IMG/VR virus record: IMGVR_UViG_3300010354_000402
Location: 1 to 29,718 of that record
Reading direction: 5' to 3' (one strand)
Source of the DNA: a virus
DNA: 29,718 bases
The position numbers were made by a program, and so were the translations under genes. The notes beneath the pieces are model-generated. The model searched no databases. It saw nothing but the letters and a program-made list of their open reading frames with translations, and had not been told where the DNA came from. Numbering within the stretch: the first letter of the stretch is position 1; every line of letters starts with the position of its first letter. Below, one piece after another: positions 433-17,652 of this stretch.

Positions 433-516
433 CTACGGGATTTCCGTAACGTAAAACGCATAACGGGAAATGCATTACGTCCGAACCGTTACGCAAATTG
501 CGTAACGCAATTTGCA
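433..516. repeat. six-unit 14-bp tandem array of CGTWACG-like dyads
   Basis: The units start exactly 14 bp apart at 433, 447, 461, 475, 489 and 503, with first bases CTACG, TAACG, TAACG, TTACG, TTACG and TAACG. Viewed as dyads, the 7-bp core CGTWACG or a close variant is centred at 434 (CGCTACG), 448 (CGTAACG), 462 (CATAACG), 476 (CATTACG), 490 (CGTTACG) and 504 (CGTAACG). A period of 14 is not a multiple of three and no frame is convincing, so this is a DNA-level signal such as a cooperative binding array for replication, partition-like or regulatory proteins. Its function is not known from sequence. Confidence 0.75.
493..515. repeat. perfect 23-bp palindrome closing the 14-bp array
   Basis: GCAAATTGCGT (493-503) and ACGCAATTTGC (505-515) are exact reverse complements around A504, the same centre as the sixth CGTWACG dyad. 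A second odd palindrome, ACGCAA-A-TTGCGT, is centred at 497. It looks like the strongest binding site of the array or a cruciform-forming element. Confidence 0.7.
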
Positions 517-573: not shown

Positions 574-728
574 CTACCTGCACCCCTTCAGGGAAAACGC
601 TAAAATCTCAGCCCAACCGCCACCCAAGCGCACCCCCGCCCCAAAAAATAAAATCGCTTTCCCTTTCGCCGCCGCCGCGCCAAACCCCACCCATAACCTC
701 CGAACTCCCCATATCTAGAGAAATGTAT

Positions 729-736
729 TACCTTTG
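729..736 (+). promoter_or_regulatory. Bacteroidota-type -7 promoter element
   Basis: TACCTTTG fits TAnnTTTG and lies 15 bases before the ATG at 752. I see no good TTTG -33 box at the expected distance, so the call rests on the -7 element and its position. Confidence 0.5.
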
Positions 737-751
737 TCAAAACGATAAGCC

Positions 752-979
752 ATGAAACCAAAAGTAAACGTACACGGAAAGTTCGCCGACAGGCAGATCA
801 AGATGTCCAATGGGATGATGATCAACGATGGTCCTGATACCATGCCATACATCACACAGGCTGCGATTCAGCGCAAGGAGCGGATGCGTCAGGAGAAGAT
901 CTCGATGATGGAGGAGGCCTACCTTAGGGCTGAGATGCGGTCCGAGATGCGCGAGATGATGAACGGAGATAAAGACTAA
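752..979 (+). CDS. hypothetical small protein (75 aa)
   Basis: This is the first gene after the long intergenic region and it follows a TAnnTTTG element. The product is highly charged. Its C-terminal half (residues about 38-75) is rich in Arg, Glu and Met and probably forms a helix (QRKERMRQEKISMMEEAYLR). I see no membrane segment, signal peptide or catalytic motif and do not recognise the family. A Gly-Met-rich stretch sits around residues 20-30. It is followed 19 bases later by another small gene on the same strand and probably shares its transcript. Confidence 0.65.
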   Translation: MKPKVNVHGKFADRQIKMSNGMMINDGPDTMPYITQAAIQRKERMRQEKISMMEEAYLRAEMRSEMREMMNGDKD

Positions 980-1697: not shown

Positions 1698-3308
1698 ATG
1701 AATAACAACATGGGATATGCTCCGAAGGAGCTTTACTTTTCTACGGACGCCGTCACGCGTCTGATCAGTGGCGTCACCAAGATGAGCGATGCGGTCAAGA
1801 GTACCTTGGGTCCTCACGGGAACACGGTGCTGATCGAGTCCCCGAACCATACCAATGGTATCACGGTCACCAAGGATGGTGTCACGGTGGCTAAGGCTAT
1901 CGAGCTGAAGGACCCCGTCGAGAACCTTGCGGTTCGGATGATGAAGGAGGCTGCGGACAGGACGGCCACGGCTGCGGGTGACGGCACGACCACGGCGATT
2001 GTACTGACCGAGGCTTTGGTCAGGGAGGGTTGGAACAGTATCGGGTCTGAGATGAACAGGACCGAGGTGCTACGCCACCTGAGTCAGTTGACGGGGAAGG
2101 CGGTGGAGAAGCTCAAGAAGCGCAGCAAGAAGGTCACTAGCGGCATGATCAGCGACGTGGCTACGATCTCCTCCAATAACGACAAGTCGATTGGTAGCAT
2201 CATCTCTGAGGTGTACAAGGACGTCGGCAAGAACGGGATCGTGACGGTGGAGAAGTCTCAGACAAGTGAGACCTATGCGGAGACCACCAAGGGGTTGAAG
2301 ATAGATAGGGGGTATTCGTCCCCGCTGTTCGCCAACGATCAGAAGAAGGACGAGTGCATCCTCGACGACGTGATGGTGTTGGTGTCGGACATGGAGATCA
2401 GCAACGTGCTACAGATCGAGATGGTGCTGAAGCCCATCATACAGGAGGGCAAGAAGCTGCTGATTGTGGCCCCGTGCAGTAACAATGTGATCAACACCTT
2501 GGCGGCGAACGTCATCAAGGGGAACATCAAGGCCTGCGTGATCCCGCCGCCTAGCTTCGGCTACAGGCAGCACGAGCTGATGCAGGACTTGGCGGTGTCG
2601 GTGGGCGCCACCTACTTCAGCGAGAAGACGGGCGACGACCTGAGCCTTATCAACTACGGCAGCTTAGGCCATGCGGCCAAGGTGATCGTCAACCACGAGA
2701 GCACGATCCTGATCAAGTCCTCGGCTAGGGCCAAGGAGGAGGTGATCGAGGAGCGCGTGGCGCAGCTTTGGGAGGCCCACGCTGCAGCCAAGACCCGTGC
2801 CGACAAGGATCACATCCTGAAGAGGATCGCGTCCCTGACGGGCGGTATTGGCGTCATACACGTAGGCGGCAACACGGACCTCGAGCAGAAGGAGCTGTAC
2901 GACAGGGTCGACGACGCGGTGTGTGCGGTGCGGTCTGCCCTCGAGGAGGGCATACTGCCGGGGGCAGGGTTGGCGCTATACAGCCTAGACGTGAGGAGTA
3001 TGGTGTCGGAGAACCCTTCAGAGGAGGAGAAGGTGGCGGCTGAGATGCTTCATGCAGCTATTCGGGTCCCGCTCATTCAGATCCTAAAGAACGGAGGCAT
3101 AGACCACGCCACCTACTACGGCGGCTTGGTTCCTGACGGGCATGGGCTAAACCTGAAGACGGGTCAGTTTGGTGACCTCGTCAAGATGGGGGTGATAGAC
3201 CCACTGAAGGTGACACGGTCGGCGCTGCAGAACGCGGTGAGCGTGGCCACGACGATACTGAGCACGAACGCTATTGTAACCATGGCTAGGTCTTATGAGT
3301 GTGCATGA
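1698..3308 (+). CDS. groEL: chaperonin GroEL (60 kDa, phage-encoded)
   Basis: This is a group I chaperonin subunit that would form a cytoplasmic ring and fold proteins with ATP and GroES. At 536 residues it is close to the usual 540-550. Hallmarks visible are STLGPHGNTVLI (about 35-46), TKDGVTVAKAIEL with D60, and AGDGTTTA with D95; these Asp residues match E. coli D52 and D87. Near the C-terminus come a DDAVCAVRSA segment and EEGILPGAGLAL, matching the D398 region. The C-terminal Gly-Gly-Met tail of bacterial GroEL is absent; it ends MARSYECA. An earlier ATG at 1691 opens only a four-codon frame. It heads an operon with a 77-residue gene and groES. Probable clients are phage capsid or tail proteins (inference). 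Confidence 0.95.
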   Translation: MNNNMGYAPKELYFSTDAVTRLISGVTKMSDAVKSTLGPHGNTVLIESPNHTNGITVTKDGVTVAKAIELKDPVENLAVRMMKEAADRTATAAGDGTTTAIVLTEALVREGWNSIGSEMNRTEVLRHLSQLTGKAVEKLKKRSKKVTSGMISDVATISSNNDKSIGSIISEVYKDVGKNGIVTVEKSQTSETYAETTKGLKIDRGYSSPLFANDQKKDECILDDVMVLVSDMEISNVLQIEMVLKPIIQEGKKLLIVAPCSNNVINTLAANVIKGNIKACVIPPPSFGYRQHELMQDLAVSVGATYFSEKTGDDLSLINYGSLGHAAKVIVNHESTILIKSSARAKEEVIEERVAQLWEAHAAAKTRADKDHILKRIASLTGGIGVIHVGGNTDLEQKELYDRVDDAVCAVRSALEEGILPGAGLALYSLDVRSMVSENPSEEEKVAAEMLHAAIRVPLIQILKNGGIDHATYYGGLVPDGHGLNLKTGQFGDLVKMGVIDPLKVTRSALQNAVSVATTILSTNAIVTMARSYECA

Positions 3309-3528
3309 CGATCCGATAATGAAGGCCGATGGCTTCGATGAGGCCATCATTGGCGAGGAGCTGCTCACGGGCAGGTTGGTCTACTCTAAGTCCAAGTGCA
3401 TAGAGATCCTGATGAGGGACATGAGCGAGGAGGACGCCGAGGATTACTTCGGCTTCAACATACTAGGCGCATACGTTGGGGAGGGAACCCCGTTATTTAT
3501 TCAAGAAGGATATGAAAGCGATAGGTAA
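3295..3528 (+). CDS. conserved phage protein of unknown function between groEL and groES (77 aa)
   Basis: The start overlaps the end of groEL by 14 bases and the end overlaps the start of groES by 17, so the three genes are translationally coupled. The product is acidic and small. The phrases MKADGFDEAIIG, YSKSKCIEILM and MSEEDAEDYFGFN resemble a widespread small phage protein that I recall in several phage groups without a known function. The last residues run through GAYVGEGTPLFI. Position suggests a link to the chaperonin system, but the family is also found away from chaperonins as far as I recall, so the function stays open. Confidence 0.8.
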   Translation: MSVHDDPIMKADGFDEAIIGEELLTGRLVYSKSKCIEILMRDMSEEDAEDYFGFNILGAYVGEGTPLFIQEGYESDR

Positions 3529-3769
3529 ATACATAGTAATCAAGTCCATCGAAGAGGAGGTCAAGACCGAGTCGGGCATCATCCTCAGCGGTGAGGATAC
3601 CAACAGCTTCAGGTACAAGAAGGGGACGGTTGTCGTTCCGGGGACCGACGTGACCTGCATCAATGTAGGCGACGTGGTCTACTACGATAAGGGTCACAGC
3701 TTCACGATGCTGATCGGCGACGAGCAGCACACCATCATCCTTGAGAGGGACGTGGTTGTCGTTGAGTAG
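3512..3769 (+). CDS. groES: co-chaperonin GroES (10 kDa)
   Basis: GroES forms the lid on the GroEL ring. The start at 3512 gives MKAIGKYIVIKSI, the usual beta-strand N-terminus, with AAGAAGGA just upstream. A longer frame from 3476 would add 12 unrelated residues encoded inside the previous gene. The mobile-loop segment that contacts GroEL is SGIILSGED (about residues 21-29). Further on come YKKGTVVVPG and INVGDVVYYDKG, the expected GroES order, with a C-terminal strand HTIILERDVVVVE. At 85 residues it is slightly shorter than the usual 95. Its 3' end overlaps the opposing gene at 3735-4220 by 35 bases. Confidence 0.88.
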   Translation: MKAIGKYIVIKSIEEEVKTESGIILSGEDTNSFRYKKGTVVVPGTDVTCINVGDVVYYDKGHSFTMLIGDEQHTIILERDVVVVE

Positions 3770-4220
3770 CCCGCTCCTCGCGGCGCTTCTCCCTGACGAT
3801 GGCGTTCATCTCCTCGATCATGTCGACGTAGCGCCTCTCGGTGTAGGTGGGTCCGCGCTTGGCTGAGTTGATGCGGTGGGCATAGTGCATCTTCCTGTTG
3901 ATCTTGGCGAACGGCGCCGAGCCCTCGAGCCTATTGTAGATGAAGTCGACCACCTGAGAGCCCTTGAAGGAGATCTGATATAGGGTCCTGTTGCTGCCGA
4001 ACCTAGGCCTGAACACGGTGATCCACTCCTCCTTAAGCAGCCGCTTGAACCGCTTTTCGTCCCACGACACGAGCTTCTCGAACTCCTTGAACCGTTCCCT
4101 GCTGAAGTAGTCCTCGGAGTAGATGAATAGGAGCATGTCTAGGTCCTCGGTGTTGAGGCCCCACCTCCTTATGACATAGTGCCTGACGACACGCCAATAC
4201 TTTAAGTAATTTGATTTCAT
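3735..4220 (-). CDS. probable winged-helix DNA-binding regulator (161 aa), only minus-strand gene
   Basis: The first 110 residues look like a MarR-type winged helix: WRVVRHYVIRRWGL, then DLDMLLFIYSEDYFSRERF, a helix pair KRFKRLLKEEWITVF, and a wing-like RTLYQISFKGSQVVDFIY. The C-terminus is basic and low in complexity (EKRREERATQRQPRPSQG). I recall similar hypothetical proteins in Bacteroidota phages. It faces the chaperonin operon, overlapping groES tail to tail, and its 5' end abuts a divergent promoter region shared with the gene at 4261. It could repress or activate either neighbour, or its transcript could act antisense to groES/groEL. DNA binding is inferred from sequence pattern only. 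Confidence 0.8.
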   Translation of the reverse strand: MKSNYLKYWRVVRHYVIRRWGLNTEDLDMLLFIYSEDYFSRERFKEFEKLVSWDEKRFKRLLKEEWITVFRPRFGSNRTLYQISFKGSQVVDFIYNRLEGSAPFAKINRKMHYAHRINSAKRGPTYTERRYVDMIEEMNAIVREKRREERATQRQPRPSQG

Positions 4221-14349: not shown

Positions 14350-14575
14350 AGCAATACGCAAGGTGTCAATAGGTCCCGACTACAAAGGCGGGGCTATGCA
14401 CTACATCGTCGGTCAGGCGGTGGTTGGTGACACCCATAGGATTGAGCACATCATATTTGATGACAGCTCTCAGTCCGTAAAGATCTACATCTCCAACGAC
14501 AAGAACGAGGTGATGGTTTGGAAGGAGTTCAACCATACCATCCCCATGTCAATCGAGTACGATATAAACTACTGA
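14339..14575 (+). CDS. conserved small phage protein (78 aa)
   Basis: The sequence KGGAMHYIVGQAVVGDTHRI and the C-terminal MVWKEFNHTIPMSIEYDI match a small beta-rich phage protein that I recall next to terminase genes of Bacteroidota phages, of unknown function. The alternating hydrophobic pattern (VKIYISNDKNEVMVW) predicts beta strands. Its ATG overlaps the preceding gene, and its stop overlaps the next ATG (TGATG at 14573-14577), so it is translationally coupled to both. Confidence 0.75.
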   Translation: MPSKAIRKVSIGPDYKGGAMHYIVGQAVVGDTHRIEHIIFDDSSQSVKIYISNDKNEVMVWKEFNHTIPMSIEYDINY

Positions 14576-15138
14576 TGCGTTCACCATTCTACTTCATTGC
14601 CACTCCATTTAACGACAGACGATACGACAACACCAAGGAGATAGGCGGAATTGAATTTATTGTTAGTACCTCTGAAGAGGATCACAAGTTCTCCAATAGG
14701 CATGCTGTCGTCGTCGAGACACCACTTGGATATGACGGTCCTATAAAGAAGGGGGACATCCTGCTTGTTCACCACAACGTCTTCAAGTTCTACAACGACA
14801 TGAAGGGCAGGCAGAAGAGCGGTAGGAGCTTCCTGAGGGACAACAAGTTTTTCATCGACTCCGAGCAGTTCTTTATGTACAAGAGCGATGGGGTGTGGCA
14901 CAGCTACGACAGGTACTGCTTTGTCAAGCCAATAGACGCCAAGGACTCGTACATCAAGAAGCCGTTCTCGAAGGAGCCGCTGATGGCAGAGATGAAGTAT
15001 CCCAACGTGTATCTGAAGGAGCGAGGGGTTGCTAGTGGCGACCTAGTGTGCTTCACTCCCGAGAGTGAGTATGAGTTTATTGTGGATGGCGAGACGCTGT
15101 ACAGGGTCTACGACCATCAGATAACCATGAAGCTATGA
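14575..15138 (+). CDS. probable tandem GroES-like protein (187 aa)
   Basis: I chose ATG 14575, within TGATG, over 14518, which lies inside the upstream gene. Two segments resemble GroES chains. The first runs KEIGGIEFIVSTSEEDHKFS, then VVVETPLGYDGPIKKGDILL and DRYCFVKPI (about residues 20-135). The second runs PNVYLKERGVASGDLVCF and YEFIVDGETLYRVYDHQI (about 145-187). The order matches GroES (glycine loop, KxGD turn, closing strand), but sequence similarity is loose. Phage co-chaperonins such as T4 gp31 also diverge strongly. It would be a second, larger co-chaperonin-like protein besides groES at 3512, or a structural protein using that fold. Confidence 0.65.
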   Translation: MRSPFYFIATPFNDRRYDNTKEIGGIEFIVSTSEEDHKFSNRHAVVVETPLGYDGPIKKGDILLVHHNVFKFYNDMKGRQKSGRSFLRDNKFFIDSEQFFMYKSDGVWHSYDRYCFVKPIDAKDSYIKKPFSKEPLMAEMKYPNVYLKERGVASGDLVCFTPESEYEFIVDGETLYRVYDHQITMKL

Positions 15139-15425
15139 TACCAAGGGATATAAAGGACGTAAAGATGAAGATCATCGAGGCGGGATATCAGGCCGTCGAT
15201 CAGCTCATCAAGGTAGCCAAGGAGGACATCATCAAGCATGATCCCGAGGATGACCTGTCTGCGGACAAGCTCAAGAACGCTGCGGCCACAAAGAAGTTGG
15301 CTATATTCGACGCGTTCGAGATACTCAGCAAGATAGAGACGGAGAGGGAGAACTTAGAGTCATCAGGTACTAGTGCAACAAAGGTAGACACAAGACAAGG
15401 CTTTGCAGAACGAAGATCAAAATAG
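15135..15425 (+). CDS. possible small terminase subunit (96 aa)
   Basis: The gene overlaps the previous one by 4 bases (ATGA) and the large terminase by 23, the classic place for a small terminase. The product is helical and charged (IIEAGYQAVDQLIKVAKEDI, DKLKNAAATKKLAIFDAFEI, LSKIETERENLES) with a basic end (GFAERRSK). The size fits, but I see no clear helix-turn-helix, so DNA recognition is not shown. Similar proteins precede terminases in other Bacteroidota phages as far as I recall. If it is the small terminase it would recognise the packaging site and recruit the large subunit. Confidence 0.55.
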   Translation: MIPRDIKDVKMKIIEAGYQAVDQLIKVAKEDIIKHDPEDDLSADKLKNAAATKKLAIFDAFEILSKIETERENLESSGTSATKVDTRQGFAERRSK

Positions 15426-17652
15426 GGTGCTCTATAGGGTACTCAATAAGTATGTCGAGCCGTCCATTGTCAAGAAGAAGAACAACGGATACTCTTGGGA
15501 GTACGGCTACGACGAGAAGTACGACATGGTCGTCATCTCAAAGACGGGTCAGATCGGCGATGTCATCAATATAAACGGACTGAATATCGCACTGCCGCTA
15601 GCTCCCGAGAAATGTCACCAAAGACACACTGATCCTAAGCATCAGTATTGGGAGAGGCACGAGTTGCCTAAAGAGTTAACAAAGATACAGTCCATTTTCC
15701 ATTGGAACGAGATGTCTTCTGACTTCAAGAACAAGTGGGTTGACTATATCGAGGACGAGTTCGACAATAGGGAGCGGGGATATTGGTTTATGAATAACGG
15801 CGAGCCCACCTACATCACGGGATCGCACTATATGTACCTGCAGTGGTCGAGTATTGACGTTGGGTATCCTGACTATAGGGAGGCAAACAGGATTTTCTTC
15901 CTGTTTTGGGAGGCCTGCAAGGCGGACCCGCGCTGTTTTGGTATGGTGTACCTGAAGATCAGGCGCTCGGGCTTCTCTTTTATGGCGGCAAGCGAGTGCG
16001 TGAACATGGCAACGCTAGCAAGGGACGCCCGTGTGGGTATTTTGTCCAAGACAGGGGCTGATGCGAAGAAGATGTTCACCGATAAGGTGGTCCCCATCAA
16101 CAGTAAGCTGCCATTTTTCTTCAGGCCCATCATGGATGGGATGGATAAGCCCAAGACGGAGCTCGCTTTCAGGGTTCCCGCCTCCAAGATCACCAAGAAG
16201 AACATGTACGACGTGTCCGAGGAGGAGATTGTGGGGCTAGACACCACCATAGATTGGAAAAATACCGAGGAAAACTCGTATGACGGGGAGAAATTGCTGC
16301 TTTTGGCGCACGATGAGAGCGGAAAGTGGGTGAAACCCAACAATATCCTCAACAATTGGAGGGTAACCAAGACCTGTTTGAGGTTGGGAAGCAAGATTAT
16401 AGGCAAATGCCTGATGGGATCCACGTCAAACGCCCTCAGTAAGGGTGGTGAGAACTTCAAGATCCTATATGAGGAGTCAAATGTGGCGGTCAGGAACGCC
16501 AATGGGCAGACAAAGAGCGGTATGTACGCCCTATTCATACCCATGGAGTGGAACATGGAGGGGTTCATCGACCAATATGGTATGCCTGTACTACGAAAAC
16601 CTTTCGACAGGATCAAGGGAGTGGATGGTGGATGGATAAGCAACGGTGCCATCGACTATTGGGAGGCCGAAGTTGAGTCTTTGAAGAGCGATTCGGACGC
16701 GCTCAACGAATACTACCGTCAGTTTCCACGCACTGAGAGCCATGCCTTCAGGGACGAGAGCAAGCAGGCGCTGTTTAACCTGACCAAGATCTACCAACAA
16801 ATCGACTACAACGACTCCATGATCAAGGAGCACTACCTCACGAGGGGTTCGTTCCATTGGAAGGACGGCATTAGGGATACCGAGGTGGTATGGATGCCCG
16901 ATAAGAAGGGCAGGTTCCTTGTCAGTTGGTTCCCAAAGCGTGAACTTCAGAACAGGTACTACGAAAGGAACGGGGTGAGGTACCCTGCCAACGAACACTT
17001 AGGGTCTTTTGGCTGCGACTCCTACGATATCTCGGCGGTTGTCGGGGGCAGGGGTTCAAACGGCGCACTTCACGGTATGACAAAGTATCACATGGAGGAC
17101 GCGCCTGTGAACGAGTTCTTCTTGGAGTACATCGCTAGGCCACAGACGGCGGAGATATTCTTCGAGGAGGTACTGATGGCCTGCGTATTCTTTGGCATGC
17201 CTATATTGGTGGAGAACAACAAGCCTAGACTGCTGTACCACTTCAAGAACAGGGGGTACAGGGGCTTCTGCATGACTAGGCCCGACCGTGAACTTAGTAA
17301 GCTATCCAAGACGGAACGCGAGTTGGGCGGTATCCCGAACTCCTCAGAGGATGTCAAGCAGGCGCACGCCTCCGCGATTGAGTCCTACATCGAGAAGTAC
17401 GTGGGCTACGACATGTCGGGCACCTACAGGGATCCTGACATGATAGGCACGATGCCCTTCACTAGGACGCTCGAGGATTGGGCTAAGTTTGATATAAATG
17501 ACAGGACTAGGTTCGACGCCTGCATCAGCTCGGGCTTGGCAATCATGGCTAATCAGAAACATCTGTATCAGCCTGAGAAGAAACAAACAAAAATTAGTGT
17601 TACCTTTGCAAGGTATACCAATGATGGGATATCAAGTAAACTAATTAGATGA
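15403..17652 (+). CDS. terminase large subunit (packaging ATPase-nuclease, 749 aa)
   Basis: This motor would pump DNA into the prohead through the portal and cut it. The ATPase A-type motif is K185-IRRSGF-S192, a variant without the usual GKS. The Walker B motif is LLLLAHDE with D304 and E305. The C-terminal RNase H-like nuclease shows GCDSYDI (D539) and ILVENN (E604), with later acidic residues near 700. The early YWFMNNGEPTYITGSHYMYL and FFLFWEACK are typical of the family. The start is TTG at 15403; no suitable ATG lies nearby and the frame matches the expected N-terminus RVLYRVLNKYVEPS. It ends overlapping the portal ATG (ATGA). Confidence 0.92.
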   Translation: MQNEDQNRVLYRVLNKYVEPSIVKKKNNGYSWEYGYDEKYDMVVISKTGQIGDVININGLNIALPLAPEKCHQRHTDPKHQYWERHELPKELTKIQSIFHWNEMSSDFKNKWVDYIEDEFDNRERGYWFMNNGEPTYITGSHYMYLQWSSIDVGYPDYREANRIFFLFWEACKADPRCFGMVYLKIRRSGFSFMAASECVNMATLARDARVGILSKTGADAKKMFTDKVVPINSKLPFFFRPIMDGMDKPKTELAFRVPASKITKKNMYDVSEEEIVGLDTTIDWKNTEENSYDGEKLLLLAHDESGKWVKPNNILNNWRVTKTCLRLGSKIIGKCLMGSTSNALSKGGENFKILYEESNVAVRNANGQTKSGMYALFIPMEWNMEGFIDQYGMPVLRKPFDRIKGVDGGWISNGAIDYWEAEVESLKSDSDALNEYYRQFPRTESHAFRDESKQALFNLTKIYQQIDYNDSMIKEHYLTRGSFHWKDGIRDTEVVWMPDKKGRFLVSWFPKRELQNRYYERNGVRYPANEHLGSFGCDSYDISAVVGGRGSNGALHGMTKYHMEDAPVNEFFLEYIARPQTAEIFFEEVLMACVFFGMPILVENNKPRLLYHFKNRGYRGFCMTRPDRELSKLSKTERELGGIPNSSEDVKQAHASAIESYIEKYVGYDMSGTYRDPDMIGTMPFTRTLEDWAKFDINDRTRFDACISSGLAIMANQKHLYQPEKKQTKISVTFARYTNDGISSKLIR
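17601..17608 (+). promoter_or_regulatory. Bacteroidota-type -7 element before the portal gene
   Basis: TACCTTTG fits TAnnTTTG, lies inside the end of the terminase gene and is about 40 bases before the portal ATG. No good -33 TTTG precedes it, so the call is tentative. Confidence 0.4.

Follow-up and report, generated by a model that had tools for sequence, protein, structure and literature searches.

The tandem array that lies just ahead of the late genes of this phage raises the question of what binds it and how a phage came to carry it. The window, by which we mean the whole stretch of DNA analyzed here, is an IMG/VR virus record of 29,718 bases with terminase (15403–17652), portal and capsid genes in addition to the chaperonin genes listed in Table 1. 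It begins 430 bp to the left of the array, and the early genes of the phage fall outside it. The relatives of the phage are Podoviridae sp. ctfjg026 (MW202828; terminase identity 79%), the Flavobacterium phages of Elemovirus (45% identity) and, more distantly, the Cellulophaga phages of Pervagoviridae (portal identity ~35%). These relatives place it among the phages of Bacteroidota, and the hosts of the cultured ones suggest that it probably infects Flavobacteria. A second GroES-like protein is encoded at 14518–15138, directly upstream of the terminase genes (PHROG 13932, E 9e-21).

A phased array in a gene-free region

The first-pass annotation had placed six dyad centers at 434, 448, 462, 476, 490 and 504, and these do lie exactly 14 bp apart. 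A motif-blind search for the six 7-mers with the fewest column mismatches, covering periods of 8 to 30 and all starts in 1–751, settled on a 14-bp period beginning at 431 (6 mismatches), compared with a best of 12 (mean 13.9) in 60 dinucleotide-preserving shuffles and a best of 11 in other sampled 751-bp pieces of the window. Both palindromes described at the end of the array are perfect with an unpaired center, the one centered on 504 spanning 23 bp (493–515) and the odd one centered on 497 spanning 21 bp (487–507), so that dyads recur every 7 bp in this last part. The dyads are of uneven strength, however: those at 434, 462, 476 and 490 pair at only about 2 to 3 of 6 arm positions and are not full palindromes, even though their core sequence and spacing are regular. 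Two ORFs, 239–517 on the minus strand and 328–519 on the plus strand, cross the array and nothing supports either as a gene, in agreement with the description of the region as gene-free.

Table 1. Coordinates of the array, its flanks and the first late genes in the window
Feature	Position	Strand	Remarks
A+T-rich stretch, early-gene side	190–330	none	Family average there 30–35% G+C
Two TTTCC/GGAAA dyads left of the array	385–401, 404–420	none	GGAAAC/TTTCC dyads also beside the L008 and L009 arrays
Core array, six CRTWACG-like 7-mers, exact 14-bp spacing	431–507	none	Unguided search; phase in L008, L009 and L047
Core CGCTACG	431–437
Core CGTAACG	445–451
Core CATAACG	459–465
Core CATTACG	473–479
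Core CGTTACG	487–493
Core CGTAACG	501–507
Degenerate seventh core, CATAGTG, in phase	515–521	none	Sequence
GCCT tetranucleotide repeat, running into a hairpin	525–546; arms 545–557 and 561–573	none
Conserved non-coding block, downstream of the array	591–716	+	AAAACGCTAAAATC .. CACCCCCGCCCC..AAAATCGCTTTCCC .. CGCCAAACCCC..; in relatives examined
TACCTTTG, matching the −7 consensus, upstream of the small late gene	729–736	+	Sequence match only
Conserved small gene, first on the late side	752–979	+	Homologue in 75 of 85 groEL-bearing loci; served as anchor
Phage GroEL gene	1698–3308	+	Second anchor
GroES	3476–3769

Tandem dyads in promoters are usually bound by oligomerizing regulators, and we consider it very likely that this array, too, serves to bind a protein. 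Cooperative binding, as had been proposed, is the natural reading of an exact phase combined with a drifting sequence, conservation in near relatives and a position in a gene-free, divergent control region, although the regularity is what we observe and the binding is what it suggests. The spacers drift in the window and in its two closest relatives, L008 and L009, which sets the array apart from 7-bp or 14-bp VNTR microsatellites with their near-identical units. The dyads explain why 380–600, taken as a single strand, forms a more stable fold than its shuffled versions do (z −5 to −6); neither Rfam nor tRNA searches gave a hit in the window or its nearest relatives. Hairpin promoters of the N4 type were considered and rejected, the D.DGD RNA-polymerase motif being absent from the giant ORFs checked.

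Turnover of the array slot among relatives

Across the groEL-bearing relatives and the window, CRTWAYG pairs number 12 at a distance of 14 bp and 6, 4 and 3 at 28, 42 and 56 bp, against about 0.4 per other distance. The phase is carried by the window, L008, L009 and the more distant L047. The alignment of relatives proposed as a check on the array thus finds the 14-bp phase kept in L008 and L009, and the concern that related genomes would not conserve it does not hold there. Relatives whose records extend far enough have the array flanked by early genes on the minus strand and late genes on the plus strand. We anchored 75 relatives on the small gene and scored repeat density against Markov shuffles in 53 non-redundant ones; density peaks at −300 to −170 from the small-gene start (mean z 3.1, exceeding 3 in 23 of the 53) and is close to zero beyond −500 and within the small gene itself.

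What fills this slot varies from phage to phage. Repeats have a period of 14 bp in the window, L008, L009 and L048, 17 in L032, 19 in L042, 23 in L029 and L080, 27 in L026 and L031, and 28 in L046, L061 and L003, and the remaining relatives carry simple G-rich or GT-rich repeats. Arrays of the phage family with periods other than 14 bp (17–34 bp) are of other sequence. Between L025/L022 and L027/L029, groEL is 91–93% identical and the conserved block next to the slot 72–78% identical, yet the arrays do not align. Judged from these alignments, the slot repeats turn over fast next to a conserved non-coding block. That block, ~110 bp long and upstream of the late operon, is common to the window phage group, Elemovirus and Pervagoviridae, and reads AAAAAGCCAAAAAATC .. 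ACCCCCACCCC .. AAAAAAAGTCrCTTTCGG .. CGCAAAACCGCTATAGTACCC. Its coordinates are 591–716 in the window, 30010–30120 in L088 and 35200–35310 in L124. Flavobacterium phage elemo and Calle_1 have the block too, elemo without a strong tandem array at that place, and the block may serve in late promoter control, as an origin core or as a packaging site. For the putative promoter element beyond it (Table 1), the Bacteroidota −7 consensus is TAnnTTTG.

Several smaller observations concern these flanks. L009 has the same GCCT tetranucleotide repeat in the same place and in the opposite orientation. The contig of a close relative, L127 (IMGVR_UViG_3300008448_000102, position 1), ends inside the conserved block, beside the expected array site, where repeats perhaps break assembly. 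Farther downstream, the groEL leader (1473–1611) contains TATGTCG repeats spaced ~9–11 bp apart that are kept in most relatives at ~70–80% identity; in L056 the leader has CGACATAAAC repeats at a 10-bp spacing.

Near-complete turnover between phages with such similar groEL genes, and the simple GCCT repeats that adjoin the array, would be expected if it were functionless, slippage-prone, low-complexity DNA kept where the region tolerates change. We regard this as very improbable. The window array is not an exact repeat: it retains core and phase although its spacers drift, a pattern opposite to that left by slippage. The phase is also common to L008, L009 and L047, and arrays of the same type recur in chromosomes at one gene family, as described below.

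Fast turnover is likewise what origin specificity would explain, if a phage origin ran from the A+T-rich stretch on the left through the array to the conserved block on the right, with a phage-encoded initiator binding the array as its iterons. The location at the early/late divergence, the A+T-rich flank, the peak of repeat density at the array place in 53 relatives and the conservation of the block over families with ~35–45% protein identity all fit an origin, as does a stand-alone protein resembling DnaA domain IV, encoded in nearly all early modules sampled. This protein (HSSVIHGI motif; MW202828 51033–51335 and homologues in most relatives) has its motif altered in G002, G008 and G016. 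The GC-skew check that had been proposed put the minimum of the cumulative skew at the array region: 8 relatives (60–65 kb records) have it no more than 60 bp from the anchor gene, and elemo has it close to the block. The skew follows gene strand, however, and is not independent evidence. The minus-strand GroEL of elemo reverses the trend locally, indicating that skew reports the coding strand; a minimum is then expected at any point of divergence and supports nothing beyond the gene map, and we therefore set GC skew aside as proof of an origin.

The array resembles the iterons of plasmid and phage origins (P1, R6K, lambda ori) in being made of tandem, site-like units by an A+T-rich stretch between early (replication) and late modules, but differs from them in its 14-bp spacing, in having dyads rather than plain direct repeats and in a sequence that is not conserved in the phage family. 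The spacing corresponds to 1.33 turns, not near whole helical turns as is usual for iterons. Elemo has the block and no strong tandem array there, a tie between an initiator and the array was not found, and chromosomal ATPase genes, at which one would not expect an origin, have the same array upstream. An origin is thus conceivable and, on balance, rather unlikely. Our search of the literature on iterons in crAss-like phages yielded nothing to the point. The array shares with plasmid centromeres (parC, tubC) the short tandem sites in a gene-free region, but no segregation ATPase, ParM or TubZ was recognized next to it, and the genes of the window are those for virion and chaperonin.

The position between divergent modules, and the 7-bp recurrence of dyads where the array is strongest, would also suit an operator, arranged like tandem ribbon-helix-helix operators, through which a phage-encoded regulator governs the early/late switch. 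Candidates are the first early gene product, the 3735–4220 product, which matches a PHROG transcription regulator weakly and which none of our analyses tied to the array, and the DnaA-IV-like protein. The omega repressor of pSM19035 is a ribbon-helix-helix protein with tandem heptad operators (WATCACW heptads), which the phage array recalls in its tandem layout and 7-bp dyad recurrence; its core repeats every 14 bp, however, and no ribbon-helix-helix protein was recognized among the proteins scanned, the early module lying outside the window. The first early gene product, from a family of ~200-aa proteins, is modeled with confidence (pLDDT 90) and shows a region predicted to resemble a helix-turn-helix and, at its C-terminus, a beta-alpha domain. 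It co-varies not with the array but with a different, dispersed palindrome. A de novo search found the 16-bp palindrome GTGTCTTYRAAGACAC, with variants, about once per kb of early region, mostly where the helix reads QKS; carriers of it upstream of the small gene include L007, L008, L016, L024, L045, L069, L080 and L081, among others. Where the helix differs there are other palindromes, namely CGTATT-N3-AATACG five times in L026, GTGCAC-N4-GTGCAC four times in L032, GTCGGT-N2-ACCGAC three times in L046 and GTCTCT-N4-AGAGAC six times in L051. Because helix and palindromes co-vary, the protein would bind these dispersed sites, and we rejected it as the array binder. L008, L009 and L042 have nearly the same recognition helix (QKSFAYKLL/QKSFAYRLI), yet the array of L042 differs. 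Control of the array by a phage regulator is accordingly a reading to which we give a low probability, and the first early gene product looks like a candidate global early repressor with dispersed, co-varying operators. Its assignment to the ParB/Spo0J type is doubtful: it had no Pfam, PHROG or PDB sequence match, and the fold match to Spo0J is weak (Z 5.5 over 90 residues at 3.4 Å) and absent with the N-terminal domain alone.

Similar arrays upstream of Bacteroidota ATPase genes

The remark in the first-pass annotation that phages rarely have named elements of this kind overlooked the same 14-bp CRTWACG array upstream of ATPase_2 genes in Bacteroidota. We scanned 84,980 bacterial and archaeal genomes, one per species, with the phage motif (four CRTWACG cores at 14 bp) and obtained at least 111 matching stretches. 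These are not to be taken at face value, since most are 7-bp repeats: among the matches listed, 89 are plain 7-bp repeats, none with an ATPase_2 gene, and 22 have a 14-bp structure, of which 6 stand directly upstream of an ATPase_2 gene (L162, from Aquiflexum; L232, from Cognataquiflexum; L183, L219, L231 and L244). Arrays that mix core states rather than repeating nearly exactly are, among the matches listed, all directly upstream of such a gene except in L263. Drifting CRTWACG dyad arrays of 14-bp period in Bacteroidota chromosomes thus appear to stand almost always directly upstream of one ATPase_2 family (COG1672, STAND-like), an association for which we found no description in the literature searched. 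The L263 array (~1635, reverse strand) stands by itself, with no ATPase, between kynureninase-like and kynurenine-monooxygenase-like genes, named here from their sequence.

ATPase_2 proteins are STAND-like P-loop ATPases. The products of the genes behind the arrays are ~375 aa long, most pairs being only 30–45% identical, and match ATPase_2 (PF01637) with E values from 4e-16 to 5e-13; one also matches nSTAND1. PADLOC relates the ATPase weakly to the defense candidates PDC-S27/PDC-S01 (E 4e-9 at best), a match that proves no defense role. Paralogues in the same genomes have upstream dyad arrays of 14 or 15 bp with other sequences, such as three copies of TTTACAAATTGTAA or repeats of ATGATTATCATYTT, and such paralogue-specific arrays precede ATPase_2/COG1672 genes in L219 (7345–7450), L274, L276 and L283, for example. 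In an even sample from 148 Bacteroidota genomes, 12 of the 20 ATPase genes had 14 or 15 as their best upstream period, where chance would allow 2 of 34 periods (binomial 1e-10); the corresponding count was 21 of 150 for upstream regions of other genes, drawn from loci already enriched in repeats.

The phage array resembles these chromosomal arrays: it has the same exact 14-bp period (14 or 15 bp upstream of ATPase genes), the CRTWACG core of the closer ATPase homologues, the palindromic drift, the several units and the non-coding setting, as a comparison of the window (CGTTACGCAAATTGCGTAACGCAATTTG) with Aquiflexum L162 (CATTACGCAATGTACGTTACGCATTCTACGTAACGTAATTTGCGTAACG) and L289 (GCGTTACGCAAATTACGTAACG) illustrates. 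The two differ in what follows. Chromosomal arrays have the ATPase_2 gene within ~160 bp, whereas ~230–320 bp separate the phage array from the first gene after it, which is the small gene at 752, with GroEL and not an ATPase coming next; the ORFs of the phage family contain no clear ATPase_2 homologue (best E 0.004).

A possible host-type array in a phage

The reading we favor, tentatively and at somewhat less than even odds, is that the phage array is a cooperative binding array of the host type, used as an operator mimic or as a capture site. On this view a DNA-binding protein would recognize clustered dyads in 14-bp phase, whose class of sequence is shared with the arrays directly ahead of ATPase_2/COG1672 genes. 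Whichever protein binds the host arrays, be it a regulator of the ATPase or the ATPase itself, which may end in a winged helix, would then bind the phage array cooperatively as well. The phage might thereby titrate a host factor, the array acting as a decoy, or might use that factor to time early and late transcription. Support for a host-type array comes from the match in core, palindromic drift and exact period between phage and chromosome, and from the enrichment of a 14/15-bp period upstream of ATPase genes together with short CRTWACG 14-bp arrays, with no ATPase alongside, in viral contigs outside the window phage family (e.g., L152/L156 and L153).

Against it, no host counterpart was matched to any of the other arrays of the phage family (17–34 bp), the motif of L048, ATGTTRYAACAT, is absent from 395 Bacteroidota genomes, and three other ATPase-array motifs are absent from IMG/VR. 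The L263 array has no adjacent ATPase, and the genome scan that yielded the stretches was made with the phage motif itself. A core this short and palindromic may also have arisen by convergence. Because the tests with other motifs were negative, we at present extend the decoy interpretation no further than the CRTWACG class. A broader version, which we consider doubtful, is that several unrelated lineages of Bacteroidota phages carry decoys copied from the operator arrays that belong to a host family of STAND-like ATPases, candidates for phage sensing or defense, with the hypervariable slot as a docking bay in which decoys would be exchanged as hosts change. The literature searched on phage decoy operators held nothing to the point. 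If the link between phage and host arrays holds, a Bacteroidota ATPase family that is widespread and uncharacterized would form, with its 14-bp array, a testable protein-DNA pair, and phages would be carrying host arrays as decoys or captured control elements. The link would also give a lead as to why, in a large group of aquatic phages, the repeats of a single intergenic slot change fast between conserved flanks. Among the viral contigs outside the family, L152 carries its three-unit CRTWACG array of 14-bp period at 1814–1848 (the same array occurs in L156), in the gap between an ssDNA-binding-like gene and a recA/uvsX-like gene, just upstream of the latter.
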